Below are positions 11,085-28,056 of a DNA stretch of 35,121 bases, in pieces; the stretch's first letter is position 1, and each line of letters opens with the position of its first letter. The stretch covers positions 95,668-130,788 of the forward strand of contig JAHDPO010000006.1 in NCBI GenBank assembly GCA_018434325.1. Direction: 5' to 3'. Position numbers and translations under genes: made by a program. The notes under the pieces were generated by a model. That model had not been told where the DNA came from and made no database searches. It saw only the letters and a list, made by a program, of their open reading frames with translations. The DNA is from Clostridia bacterium. Lineage in GTDB: Bacteria > Bacillota > Peptococcia > DRI-13 > UBA5745.

Positions 11085-12353
11085 ATGGACAATTCTCTAC
11101 TGATTCAAAAGGCCACCCTAATCGACGGCACCGGTAAGCCCCCAAAGGAAAATTGCACAATAGTCGTCAAGGACGGCAAATTCGCCCATATTTATGACTG
11201 CCCTGAGGGAGCCGATAAAGGCTTGCGGGAAAATCCCGATTTACCGGTGATCGATGCTGAGGGCTGCTATCTTTTGCCCGGCTTAATGGATTTGCATATT
11301 CATCTTGATGGCTACTCCCTTAAGGATCATATTATCGCCAAGTACTGGCATATGACTACCGCCAAGGCCCTGAAGCTGCTCCATGCGGTCAATAATGCTT
11401 CCCAGGTTCTGGATTGCGGCTTCACTACCCTGCGCTTTATGGGGATGTACCAATCCATGGATATCCATCTGCGGGAAGCCATCAATTTGGGTTTGGTTCG
11501 GGGGCCCCGCCTCCTCTGCTCGGGCCAGCAGGTAACCATGACCGCCGGCCATTGGGATTTATTTACGCCCAACTGGGCTCTTCGGGAGCCTGGCGAAACC
11601 TCCGACGGCATTGACGAGTGCTTGAAAGCGGTACGCCGCCTTGTTCGGGAGGGCGCCGATTTCGTAAAGATCCATTCCAGCGGCGGCTTAATGTCCCCCA
11701 GTGATAAGGTAGGCTGGCGCAACTACACTTACGAGGAAACCAAAGCCATCTGCGACGAGGCCCATGCCTTTGATATGCGGGTAGCTGCCCACGCCGGTGG
11801 CCGGGAGGGCATCAAGGTCTGTCTGGACGCCGGTGTCGATACTATCGAGCATGGCTATTATTTAGGAGAAAACGACGACCTGATCGAGCAAATGATAAAA
11901 CAGGGCGCCTTCCTGATCCCTACTGTAGCCGTTACCGATGCCTGTAAAAACCATGCTGCCAGCACAGGGGCCCCCGCCGGCACCATCGCTAAAGGACAGG
12001 CTGCCTATGAAGCCCACCAAAACAGTATTTATAAAGCCTATAAAGCCGGCGTCAAAATGGGCAGCGCCAGCGACGCTTACAATCTGTTGAAATGCTGGGA
12101 TCTGGGCAGAGAATTTGCCATTCTGGAAAGAGTGGGAATTAAGCCTCTGGACATTATAAAATTTGCCACCCTGGGATCCGCCGACGCCATTGGCCGCATG
12201 AATGAACTGGGCAGCATTGAAGAAGGCAAAATTGCCGATCTGATCTTATTGAACTGCAATCCTTTGGAAAACATGGATAAGCTGGGCTCCGACGCCGCTA
12301 CTCCCTTGGTTGTCCTGGCCGGGAAAGTGGTGAAAAATAATTTGGAGCAATGA
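11085..12353 (+). CDS. Metal-dependent amidohydrolase, catalytically complete
   Basis: A 422-residue cytosolic amidohydrolase-superfamily member resembling the imidazolonepropionase/Xaa-Pro-dipeptidase-like group. A small N-terminal beta domain ends at PGLMD and the TIM barrel follows. All metal-site residues are visible: His71 and His73 (DLHIHL), Lys195, presumably carboxylated (ADFVKIHSSGG), His236 (AAHAGG), His256 (TIEHGYY) and Asp330 (SASDAYN). It should hydrolyse a cyclic or linear amide or ester; the substrate is not evident. It could release a hydroxy acid or amino acid from an imported derivative for the LarA homologue, which is inference from the operon. GGCGG lies upstream of the ATG. 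The next gene is a paralogue 9 bases away. Confidence 0.9.
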   Translation: MDNSLLIQKATLIDGTGKPPKENCTIVVKDGKFAHIYDCPEGADKGLRENPDLPVIDAEGCYLLPGLMDLHIHLDGYSLKDHIIAKYWHMTTAKALKLLHAVNNASQVLDCGFTTLRFMGMYQSMDIHLREAINLGLVRGPRLLCSGQQVTMTAGHWDLFTPNWALREPGETSDGIDECLKAVRRLVREGADFVKIHSSGGLMSPSDKVGWRNYTYEETKAICDEAHAFDMRVAAHAGGREGIKVCLDAGVDTIEHGYYLGENDDLIEQMIKQGAFLIPTVAVTDACKNHAASTGAPAGTIAKGQAAYEAHQNSIYKAYKAGVKMGSASDAYNLLKCWDLGREFAILERVGIKPLDIIKFATLGSADAIGRMNELGSIEEGKIADLILLNCNPLENMDKLGSDAATPLVVLAGKVVKNNLEQ

Positions 12354-12362
12354 GGTGCGGCC

Positions 12363-13631
12363 ATGAGTCAGCGAATCCGCATCAAACAAGTAACGGTAAT
12401 CGACGGACTGGGCAATCCCCCCCTGCCCGATTGTACCGTTATCATCGAGAATCAACGAATCCAAGGCCTTTGGCAAGGCAATCAAGCGCTTTCAGCCGAT
12501 AAATCAGCCGATAAACCAACGGAGCTGGTCATCGACGGCAAGAACAAATATTTACTGCCGGGCTTGATGGATATGCAGATTTTCCCCCATGCCTACGCTT
12601 TGGCGGAACCTACCCACATCAATTTGTGGCACCGCAGCAATGCTAATGAAATGAAAATGCTCCACGCCGTAAAAAACCTTTCTTTCCTTTTGGATAGCGG
12701 ATATACTACTATCCGGGCTTTCGGCATGCCCGGCTCACTGGATATCCATCTGCGGGAGGCGGTCAGTTTAGGCCTGATCCGCGGTCCCCGGCTCTTTTGT
12801 TCCGGCCAGCATCTCAGCCCCACCGGCGGCCACGCCGAGGAAATGTATGGCTCCCCCTTCGGTCTGCGGGAACCGGGCCAAACGGTGGACGGCGTCACGG
12901 AATGTCTGAAGGCGGTACGCACAAGGCTGCGAGAGGGCGCCGATTTTATTATGATCCACTGCGGCGGCGGTATTATGGGCAAGGATAAGATGTATTGGCG
13001 GAATTTTACACCGGCGGAAATGCAGGCTATTGTTCAGGAGGCCCATGCCTTTGATATGCTGGCTTCGGCCCACGTAGGCTCCGGTCTTAGTGTAAAAACC
13101 GCTCTTGATGCCGGTGTGGATATTATCGAGCAAGGCTACTGTCTGGACGATCAACACATTGCCCAAATGAAGGAGCAAGGAACCCGTTATGTACCCACCC
13201 TGGCCGTCACCTATGCTTGTGTGGCCCATGCCGAGAAAACCGGTATTTCCCGGCAAGCTCTTTACAAAGGACAGCGGGCTTGGGAAACTCACCAGGCCAG
13301 CGTCCGCAAGGCCTACAAAGCCGGGGTCAAACTGGCCAGCGGCAGCAATTGTTTCAACTTGATCCGGGTGGAATCGGCCAGGACGGAATTTCCTTTATTG
13401 GCCGGTGTGGGTATTCCGGCTCTGGAAATAATTCGTCTGGCTACCTCGGCGGCGGCAGAAGCCCTCCGCTTCGGCAGTCAATGCGGCAGCATTACGCCGG
13501 GCAAGCTGGCGGATCTGATCTTGCTGACAGCAGATCCCCTGCAGAACATTGCAGTGCTGGGAGACCCGGCCCTGACGTCACTGGTTATTAAAGAAGGAAA
13601 GATTGTCAAGCAGAGCAAAGGCTCCCCATAA
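12363..13631 (+). CDS. Amidohydrolase-fold paralogue lacking its metal site (predicted pseudoenzyme)
   Basis: A 422-residue paralogue of the preceding gene, the same length and collinear throughout. Five of the six metal-site residues are replaced: the HxH pair is Gln72 and Phe74 (MDMQIFPH), the lysine is Met197 (ADFIMIHCGGG), the second barrel histidine is Gln257 (IIEQGYC) and the aspartate is Asn329 (SGSNCFN). Only His237 (SAHVGSG) remains. The frame is open and the rest is well conserved, so this is a maintained protein, not a decaying copy. It may form a hetero-oligomer with its neighbour, bind the ligand, or catalyse something metal-free. The start overlaps the coupling zone of the upstream stop (GAGGTG then ATG), and a terminator follows at 13640. 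Confidence 0.9.
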   Translation: MSQRIRIKQVTVIDGLGNPPLPDCTVIIENQRIQGLWQGNQALSADKSADKPTELVIDGKNKYLLPGLMDMQIFPHAYALAEPTHINLWHRSNANEMKMLHAVKNLSFLLDSGYTTIRAFGMPGSLDIHLREAVSLGLIRGPRLFCSGQHLSPTGGHAEEMYGSPFGLREPGQTVDGVTECLKAVRTRLREGADFIMIHCGGGIMGKDKMYWRNFTPAEMQAIVQEAHAFDMLASAHVGSGLSVKTALDAGVDIIEQGYCLDDQHIAQMKEQGTRYVPTLAVTYACVAHAEKTGISRQALYKGQRAWETHQASVRKAYKAGVKLASGSNCFNLIRVESARTEFPLLAGVGIPALEIIRLATSAAAEALRFGSQCGSITPGKLADLILLTADPLQNIAVLGDPALTSLVIKEGKIVKQSKGSP

Positions 13632-19890: not shown

Positions 19891-21510
19891 TTACTGTTGG
19901 CGAGCCAAAGCCGCGCCGATGAAATCCCGGAAAAGAGGATGGGCCCGGTTGGGGCGGGATTTGAATTCCGGCTGGAAAGAACAAGCCACAAACCAGGGAT
20001 GCTCAGGTAGTTCCACTACCTCCACAAATTCGTCGTGATCAGAAAGACCCGTAAGAGCAAGGCCGCCGTCAATAAAGGTCTGGCGATAAGCGTTGTTCAT
20101 TTCCAGGCGGTGGCGGTGCCGTTCCCGAATCTCCTCGCTGCCGTAAGCAGCGGCGGCTTTGGAACCTCTTTTCAATACACAGCCGTAGCTGCCGATTCGT
20201 AAAGTACCGTTTTCGCCGAAGCTGGAGGGGTCGGACTTATCGTCTTTACGGGCGTAATGGACGACTTTATCCTGACTTTCGGGATGGGCTTCCTCGGAAC
20301 CGGCATCCATACCCAATACATTCCGGCCGTATTCCACCAAAGCCAGCTGCATACCTAAACTTATGCCGAAGTAGGGGATTTTATTTTCTCTGGCATATTG
20401 AATTGCTAATATCTTACCCTCGATGCCCCGGGTGCCGAAGCCGCTGGGCACCAGTATGCCGTCATAACCTGCCAATATTTCTTTGGCTTTTTCTTTGCTG
20501 GTGATATTGCCGGAAAAAATCAGGGAATGCTGGACTTCCGTCTCATGATGGATGCCGGCATGGCGCAAAGCCTCGCAGACGCTGAGATAGGAATCCGGCA
20601 GCTCTGTATATTTGCCGACGATGGCAATTTTGACCCGATTCTTGGGGTTTTTGGCACGGCGTACCATGGCCTCCCATTCGTCCATCATGGCCGGACCGCA
20701 CTCCAGGCGGAAATAATCCACTACGATGTCGTCCAGACCCTCAGAACGCAAAAGCAGCGGAATCTCGTCCAGATTGTCTACATCTGGCGTCTGAATTACC
20801 GCTTCTTTGTCAATATCGCAGAATAAGGCGATCTTCGATTCCGTATCCTTTGATAAAGGCCGCTCGGAACGGCAGACGATGGCGTTGGGCTGGATGCCGA
20901 TGCTGCGCAGTTCCTTGACGCTATGCTGTGTGGGTTTTGTCTTGGCTTCGGAGGAAGCGGAAAGATAAGGCACCAGCGTTACATGGATATACATGATATT
21001 TTCGCTGCCGAGATCCCGCTTCATCTGGCGGATGGCTTCAATAATCGGCAGAGACTCGATATCGCCTACCGTCCCCCCTACCTCAGTAATCACCACATCG
21101 GGATAGAGCCTGTCCGCCACTGTCCGGATGGAGTTTTTAATCTCATTGGTAATATGGGGAATAACCTGAACAGTGCCGCCCAGGTATTTGCCTTCCCGCT
21201 CATTGCGGATGACCCTGTCGTAAACGGAGCCCATGGTAGTGCTGCAGCAGCCCGGCAAAGTACTGTCGGTGAAACGCTCGTAGTGGCCTAAATCCAGATC
21301 CGTCTCAGCGCCGTCGTCGGTGACAAAAACTTCGCCGTGCTGAGTAGGGCTCATATTGGTAGGATCTACATTGATGTAAGGATCAAACTTTTGGTTGACC
21401 ACTTTCAGGCCCCGGTTTTTTAATAAACGTCCCAAGGAGGCCGCGGTAATTCCTTTCCCCAGTGAGGAGACTACTCCTCCGGTGATGAATACGTATTTTG
21501 TCGATGACAT
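19891..21510 (-). CDS. pyrG: CTP synthase with degenerate glutaminase active site
   Basis: Makes CTP from UTP, ATP and a nitrogen donor. The 539 residues have the normal two-domain length. The synthetase half (1-270) is intact: P-loop GGVVSSLGKGI (11-21), HGEVFVTDDGAETDLDLGH, EVGGTVGDIES and KTKPTQHSVKELRSIGIQP. In the glutaminase half (about 293-535) the nucleophile is Ser384 (YFGISLGMQ, normally GICLG), the catalytic histidine is Gln513 (SFQPEF, normally QFHPEF), and the first Gly of GGFG is Ser356 (VPSGFG). Glu515, Arg361, Gln388 and the surrounding fold are kept. Glutamine hydrolysis is therefore predicted to be lost, leaving ammonia as donor; other departures from consensus (VDPTNMSPTQ, SASSEAK) mark a divergent lineage. 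argS lies 36 bases upstream. Confidence 0.95.
   Translation of the reverse strand: MSSTKYVFITGGVVSSLGKGITAASLGRLLKNRGLKVVNQKFDPYINVDPTNMSPTQHGEVFVTDDGAETDLDLGHYERFTDSTLPGCCSTTMGSVYDRVIRNEREGKYLGGTVQVIPHITNEIKNSIRTVADRLYPDVVITEVGGTVGDIESLPIIEAIRQMKRDLGSENIMYIHVTLVPYLSASSEAKTKPTQHSVKELRSIGIQPNAIVCRSERPLSKDTESKIALFCDIDKEAVIQTPDVDNLDEIPLLLRSEGLDDIVVDYFRLECGPAMMDEWEAMVRRAKNPKNRVKIAIVGKYTELPDSYLSVCEALRHAGIHHETEVQHSLIFSGNITSKEKAKEILAGYDGILVPSGFGTRGIEGKILAIQYARENKIPYFGISLGMQLALVEYGRNVLGMDAGSEEAHPESQDKVVHYARKDDKSDPSSFGENGTLRIGSYGCVLKRGSKAAAAYGSEEIRERHRHRLEMNNAYRQTFIDGGLALTGLSDHDEFVEVVELPEHPWFVACSFQPEFKSRPNRAHPLFRDFIGAALARQQ

Positions 21511-25923: not shown

Positions 25924-28056
<2,133 letters not shown>

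Follow-up and report, generated by a model that had tools for sequence, protein, structure and literature searches.

A CTP synthase with a degraded glutaminase site, probably dependent on free ammonia, in a family of Clostridia

The genome of a Clostridia bacterium contains, in the stretch of 35,121 nucleotides analysed here (the window), a CTP synthase gene, pyrG-a, whose glutaminase domain has lost its nucleophile and its catalytic histidine. As judged from its sequence, PyrG-a is quite probably a natural CTP synthase that depends on ammonia and not on glutamine, and probably not on GTP either. CTP synthase is generally treated as a glutamine amidotransferase that GTP switches on. No description of a natural glutaminase-dead CTP synthase was found in the literature searched (subscription journals and preprints lay outside its scope), and a 2012 comparison of amidotransferase families across 800 genomes puts the fusion of pyrG to a glutaminase at 100% (PMC3376133, Table 1), which we read as a count of domains and not of catalytic residues. 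A lost glutaminase and dependence on ammonia had been proposed in the original prediction, and this proposal is partly supported: the loss extends through the nine family genomes available, a canonical second copy exists, three further lineages have lost the nucleophile, and the GTP site has changed as well.

Substitutions in the glutaminase domain

The features of the gene are as follows, with PyrG of E. coli MG1655 as the reference for residue numbering.

19891..21510, minus strand: pyrG-a, CTP synthase of 539 amino acids with a degraded glutaminase triad (translation, family models, alignment)
20704..21498, minus strand: synthase (amidoligase) domain, Pfam CTP_synth_N, intact (residues 5-269)
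19918..20601, minus strand: class I glutamine amidotransferase (GAT) domain, fold predicted to be kept, catalytic residues lost (residues 304-531; AlphaFold2 model, structure match)
20359..20361, minus strand: Ser384 (AGT) at the position of the nucleophile Cys, C379 in E. coli (codon, alignment)
19972..19974, minus strand: Gln513 (CAG) at the position of the catalytic His, H515 in E. coli (codon, alignment)
20443..20445, minus strand: Ser356 (AGC) at the position of the oxyanion-hole Gly, G351 in E. coli (codon, alignment)
19966..19968, minus strand: Glu515, third residue of the triad, kept, equivalent to E. coli E517 (alignment)
21355..21357, minus strand: Asn52 in place of E. coli Thr51, L2 loop of the GTP cleft (alignment; GTP role from PMC9138612, section 3)
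20191..20211, minus strand: altered GTP 'wing', NGTLRIG against canonical GGTMRLG (alignment; role from PMC9138612)
20104..20106, minus strand: Leu469 at a Tyr/Phe position, Y471 in E. coli, with Leu in 9/9 family members (alignment)

Two NCBIfam PyrG models recognise PyrG-a with scores far over the cut-off (775.7 and 744 bits), the latter being TIGR00337, glutamine-hydrolysing CTP synthase, with a cut-off of 462.75. CTP_synth_N gives 406.1 bits against a curated cut-off of 26.1, and the protein falls below the cut-off of PRK06186, CTP synthase C-terminal region-related (seleno)protein (137 vs 260 bits). In the alignment, the Cys-His-Glu triad of the TIGR00337 enzymes reads Ser, Gln and Glu. 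By its synthase domain and architecture PyrG-a belongs with the CTP synthases, but in sequence it lacks the defining triad of the glutamine-hydrolysing enzymes. As the NCBIfam model that supplies its name calls it glutamine-hydrolysing, metabolic models could carry the wrong nitrogen source for it. The conserved synthase residues are present, and in sequence the ATP/UTP site is conserved. The tunnel gate described in PMC9138612 is likewise present in the alignment (P54, H57, V60). The GTP-activation motif from the same source, GG(TS)(ML)RLG together with Thr51, appears in PyrG-a as NGTLRIG and Asn.

Most of this had been anticipated. The three substitutions at Ser384, Gln513 and Ser356 named in the original prediction are confirmed by the minus-strand codons and the alignment to E. 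coli PyrG, and so are the open frame (a translation of 539 amino acids without interruption), the retention of Glu515, which aligns with E. coli E517, and the intact synthetase half, for which the conserved residues and the CTP_synth_N score speak. Its statement that the glutamine-binding surroundings are kept stands for E403, Q383, R356, R440, R468 and R470 (E. coli numbers) but not for T51 (now Asn), Y/F471 (Leu) and the wing (GGTMRLG to NGTLRIG). The AGT and CAG codons recur in G004, a separate assembly of another species whose protein is 96% identical, and Gln takes the place of the His in all nine family members; a sequencing or assembly error as the source of the changes is ruled out by the same changes in separate genomes.

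An AlphaFold2 model of PyrG-a built from 30 window and locus sequences has a mean pLDDT of 86.2 and a pTM of 0.86, with values below 50 at residues 46-60 and 429-435, which are parts of the GTP and tunnel loops. Its best solved match is the T. thermophilus CTP synthase with glutamine (1vco; Z 47.8, rmsd 1.9, 525 residues aligned). Since the model matches a solved full-length CTP synthase, the GAT fold is predicted to be kept, a statement about the fold alone and silent on catalysis.

Two other regions of the window were noted by eye. At 11085-12353 and 12363-13631 lie adjacent, similar amidohydrolase-like genes near transporter-like genes, an apparent tandem duplication, and 25924-28056 encodes a long protein that looks secreted, in which a low-complexity GTGTGT linker precedes the C-terminal part.

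Distribution, inheritance and selection

A protein search among 60 relatives gave a match in 57. In the window's family pyrG-a is found in 9/9 genomes available (the window's own included), without a stop codon in any of them; identity to the window protein is 76-97% in seven of the eight others and 66% in G006. The catalytic His is Gln throughout (9/9), and the oxyanion-hole Gly351 is changed in six of the nine. The nucleophile position is less uniform, with Ser in two, Gly in six and Cys in one (G006). A Ser/Gln pair as a signature, suggested in the original prediction, is not borne out by these counts, as Ser is found in 2/9, Gly in 6/9, and G006 combines Cys with Gln. This last combination suggests that the His was possibly lost before the Cys. 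Among the synthase residues, which are otherwise kept, the exception is D72, changed in G005a. It is hardly credible that the glutaminase activity survives, with Ser384 as the nucleophile and another residue serving for the His. A serine could in principle be a nucleophile, and Glu515 and E403 are kept, but the Gly in 6/9 orthologues leaves no side chain able to act as one, the His is absent from all nine, and the oxyanion hole is altered in the six mentioned.

In the tree, pyrG-a is monophyletic (100/100) and groups with the single pyrG of the order (97/89). It is found in the order argS-pyrG-fba-glpX, and the same order, with other genes interspersed, occurs in the single-copy genomes G009, G011, G013, G018 and G023. 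On this evidence from sequence, the window pyrG-a is the vertically inherited copy, in the ancestral argS-pyrG-fba-glpX locus. The second copies (pyrG-b) fall in a distant clade, beside genes of another family of the class. There, G006b and the second copy of G179 are sisters (98/99), and G006b stands apart from the other five b copies (100/99); for this reason pyrG-b may have entered on more than one occasion or have been handed on. Deeper forks of this clade lack resolution. The fragments G029 and G042 were excluded from both trees. The pyrG of G029 (L030) is broken by one in-frame TAA, which may be an error or a true interruption; relatives have intact copies.

A viral origin was also considered. 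A tblastn search of phage records returned 18 records, one of them in the 60-80% identity band; the 10 matches listed had 52.7-58.5% identity, 9/10 of these were unannotated, and no lead came from them. OR846731, OR846738, OR846587 and OR845006 are unannotated 'phage' records from Listeria, Enterococcus and Staphylococcus with nearly full-length CTP synthase genes, which are probably host DNA.

Selection was estimated from Nei-Gojobori pairs, many with dS > 1, so that the values are rough. For pyrG-a, omega is 0.013-0.063 in the synthase domain (6 pairs, a seventh being saturated) and 0.039-0.227 in the GAT domain (7 pairs). The GAT domain gives 0.054-0.206 in pyrG-b (5 pairs) and 0.049-0.178 in single-copy pyrG (6 computable of 10 pairs, two of the six involving degraded members of family f8). 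Purifying selection acts on both domains of pyrG-a. For the two closest pyrG-a pairs, dN of the GAT domain divided by that of the synthase domain comes to 4.8 and 3.9, and for the other five pairs to 1.8-2.5; the corresponding ratios are 1.3-2.1 for b pairs and 1.6-3.1 for single-copy pairs (one uninformative pair omitted), canonical pairs lying at 1.3-2.3 except in f8, where the ratio goes up to 3.1. Because amino-acid changes gather in the GAT domain at 3.9 and 4.8 times the rate of the synthase domain in the closest pairs, some relaxation is possible; constraint on the GAT domain of pyrG-a is clear, if perhaps a little weaker than in canonical enzymes.

These values bear on the idea that PyrG-a is decaying, made redundant by the acquisition of PyrG-b, with loss of the glutaminase as the first step to loss of the gene. 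The b copies do fall outside the pyrG clade of the order itself and seem to be acquired, the active site has lost two residues, and in the two closest pairs the GAT domain outpaces the synthase domain. Against this stand nine genomes out of nine without a stop codon, the identities given above, the low omega of the synthase domain, and the same change in genomes where no second pyrG was found. Decay is very improbable.

A canonical second copy

The window genome (3.83 Mb, 98.3% complete) has two CTP_synth_N genes, pyrG-a and pyrG-b. The original prediction had named a second pyrG as a possibility; it lies at C29:67655-69373 and is canonical, with GICLGMQ and YHPEF intact. Such a copy was found in 6/9 family genomes; in G001-G003 (80-85% complete) it was looked for and not found, possibly through an assembly gap. 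The neighbours of pyrG-b are purF, carA, carB::dapF, nadE and glmS, names that come from reading the translations and not from a family search. The set is the same in G004, G007 and G008; on the short contig of G005 it consists of carA, carB::dapF, pyrG-b and glmS, with nadE absent between the last two, and G006b is located elsewhere, away from the cluster. The CarA of this cluster retains the Cys motif GICLGHQ, so the window genome has not abandoned the use of glutamine in general.

It is worth recording the cluster itself: in G000:C29 (L035:7370-19541) users of amide nitrogen stand together in the order purF, carA, carB::dapF, pyrG-b, nadE, glmS, with an L,D-transpeptidase-like gene on the opposite strand. 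The gene carB::dapF is a fusion of the carbamoyl-phosphate synthetase large chain with diaminopimelate epimerase, seen in several family members (L035:12788-16954; L227:4749-8690 in G006).

Independent losses and the GTP site

On a quick tree of 140 rows (SH-aLRT support only), from which G179b (a fragment) and L082-L085 (same contigs as G001, G003, G016 and G033) were omitted, the state of the nucleophile changes four times. These changes fall in the window's family, in G023 of family f8 (same order), in family f88 and in the Sporosarcina loci retrieved. In G023 (92% complete, single pyrG found) the Cys is Gly and the His is kept. In its relatives G015, G022 and G024 the Cys is present, but R356, R470 and a large part of the wing are gone. 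In sequence, the f8 members are apparent intermediates, the GTP and glutamine site degrading with the Cys present in three of the four. These four genomes (G015, G022, G023 and G024; loci L025, L057, L020 and L028) are 1.3-1.7 Mb in size, with one pyrG found in each. In f88, G179 and G347 both have Ser at the nucleophile position; G179 has an additional canonical pyrG at a contig edge, no second pyrG was found in G347, and a search for pyrG in G256, G367 and G388 found none.

The Sporosarcina loci come from 78 named relatives (the best 80 loci by similarity less L082 and L083), 69 with Cys, six with Ser and three with Gly; the nine without Cys are the nine Sporosarcina loci. All nine have Met for T51 and an altered wing and retain His and Glu. 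One CTP_synth_N gene was found in each of the nine genomes; completeness is not given for them, and one, S. thermotolerans, is a complete chromosome. The relatives' loci were found by short peptide patterns of the window protein, none spanning the nucleophile, and further Sporosarcina genomes lie outside that set.

Two nucleophile codon patterns place a Cys-less pyrG in at least 4 of 398 sampled genomes of the phylum (G000, G023, G179 and G347), a lower bound, as the patterns need ATG (Met) after the second Gly, where 5/9 Sporosarcina loci have Leu. Two further pattern matches were rejected: the one in G383 is a 25-amino-acid frame and not pyrG, and the one in G027 is another protein, G027's own pyrG having Cys. 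A looser pattern searched in the order matched in 9/25 genomes, with a second match in G007 at C3:14046-14077. For carB, which was looked for in G001, G003, G023, G179 and G347, nothing beyond weak ATP-grasp matches was found, and for that reason de novo synthesis of UMP may be missing from several of the Cys-less genomes.

The GTP site has changed along with the glutaminase. According to PMC9138612 this site includes T51, the L11 lid, the 429-440 loop, R468 and R470. Among 49 canonical rows, T51, R356, C379, E403, G436, R440, R468, R470, H515 and E517 each occur in 48 or 49 (one fragment row lacks T51). In the pyrG-a family, T51 is Asn, Y/F471 is Leu and G436 is Asn or Thr in 9/9; R356, R440, R468, R470, E403 and the gate P54, H57 and V60 are retained in 9/9. 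Since E403 and these four arginines are conserved in the family, some ligand binding may remain. In loop L4, R105 is Glu in eight and Gln in one, and D107 is Lys in seven, Gln in one and Glu in one, at positions that vary in canonical rows too.

Across the 140 rows, T51 differs in 18/20 Cys-less rows vs 2/120 rows with Cys, G436 in 19/20 vs 5/120, and T438 in 13/20 vs 6/120. R356 (3/20 vs 4/120) and R470 (1/20 vs 3/120) have no overall link to loss of the Cys. The Cys rows with changed GTP-site residues include G006a and the degraded f8 members, and the Cys-less G023 and G179a keep T51. With C379 itself excluded, 176 columns are conserved at ≥95% among Cys rows, and 11 of them are changed in at least two of the four losing lineages. 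Five of these 11 lie in the published GTP cleft of 15 conserved columns (p 0.00077), or six in 16 columns if the 429-440 loop is added (p 7.5e-5), in a hypergeometric test that treats columns as independent. The remaining changed columns, outside both cleft and loop, are 497, 413, 351, 153 and 73. Because the rows are related and there are only four independent pairs, too few for significance, the association is a consistent pattern and not proof.

The distribution of single copies also helps to weigh another explanation, in which PyrG-a is mainly a partner of PyrG-b in mixed tetramers or filaments, a glutaminase-dead regulatory or complementing subunit. The two copies occur together in 6/9 family genomes, purifying selection persists on the GAT domain of PyrG-a, and loop L4, which extends into the adjacent protomer, has an altered position 109 in 5/6 b copies, with Leu kept there in 7/9 a copies. 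However, position 109 also varies in enzymes with an intact Cys (Cytobacillus and others) and is therefore not diagnostic, which weakens complementary L4 defects as proof of mixed tetramers. The b copy was not found in G001-G003, and G023, G347 and the nine Sporosarcina genomes show a single copy, leaving G179 as the one genome with two among the other losing lineages. A role mainly as partner is unlikely.

Proposed function

As an ammonia-dependent CTP synthase, PyrG-a would phosphorylate UTP with ATP, and free NH3, entering by the vestibule at the GTP cleft, would then aminate it. The GAT domain would remain as a scaffold for the domain interface, the tunnel and the tetramer, and control by GTP would have been lost. 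In the CTP synthases studied, GTP activates the hydrolysis of glutamine and weakly inhibits the use of outside NH3, the latter described for exogenous NH3 in the E. coli enzyme (PMC9138612); given these two effects, loss of the GTP site would be neutral or helpful. PyrG-b, adjoining other users of glutamine, would handle glutamine-dependent CTP synthesis in a division of labour with PyrG-a. As the canonical PyrG-b is present, PyrG-a need not carry CTP synthesis in the window genome. The degraded PyrG is the sole copy found in G023 and in the nine Sporosarcina genomes retrieved.

Ammonia in the habitat and wider meaning

The original prediction pointed to an ammonia-rich habitat. Two members of the window's genus, G001 and G003, are the MAGs Th196P3bin90 and Th196P4bin44; according to PMC7024585, Th196 is the humus feeder Termes hospes, and P3 and P4 are gut compartments. 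High ammonia has been reported for termite hindguts (PMC8784593, PMC4675541). The habitat argument draws on these two hindgut relatives.

For Sporosarcina, the species described is S. pasteurii, which lies outside the nine loci. According to PMC7775470, ammonia is described as mandatory for its growth and urea can replace it, and in the presence of urea growth did not differ without added ammonia. The same source reports that the organism shows activity of neither glutamine synthetase nor glutamate synthase. It attributes the poor use of inorganic nitrogen to a glutamate dehydrogenase of low affinity, and it cites a glutamine requirement for other strains. The link from PyrG to the ammonia requirement is one that we infer, and the requirement has this other proposed cause, the glutamate dehydrogenase.

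A broader reading is offered tentatively. Glutamine-independent, GTP-uncoupled CTP synthases may be a natural class that arose convergently, the glutaminase and the GTP switch being given up jointly, and in Sporosarcina with a sole PyrG, CTP may be tied to free ammonia and the enzyme so contribute at the molecular level to the long-known ammonia requirement. If so, the synthesis of RNA, DNA and lipids would, wherever this PyrG is the sole one, stand directly under the supply of free ammonia, and the Cys-less PyrG would offer a concrete, testable tie to the need for ammonia reported in ureolytic Sporosarcina. The four natural losses would also make a natural experiment on the purpose of GTP binding, as activator of glutamine hydrolysis or as plug of the NH3 entrance.

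Comparison with known systems

PyrG-a resembles the glutamine-hydrolysing PyrG (TIGR00337; E. coli 1S1M, T. thermophilus 1VCO) in domains, fold, synthase residues and tunnel gate, and differs from it in lacking the nucleophile and the His and in its altered GTP-activation elements. Ureotelic carbamoyl-phosphate synthetase I has kept its glutaminase domain with Ser for Cys and uses free ammonia. The likeness lies in the retained domain with Ser; the synthetase is unrelated, so the parallel is an analogy between whole enzymes. Another example is type N NadE, which belongs to a mixed family of amidating enzymes and takes ammonia and not glutamine, as proposed for PyrG-a; it is a single-domain protein without a glutaminase, whereas PyrG-a retains a dead one (PMC3376133). 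A laboratory counterpart is the mutant G352P of E. coli PyrG (Weng and Zalkin, cited in PMC9138612, section 2.3.3), a change beside the oxyanion hole that left no detectable glutamine-dependent activity and almost full activity with NH4Cl. G352P is an engineered single change, whereas the loss in PyrG-a is natural, involves several residues and is conserved.
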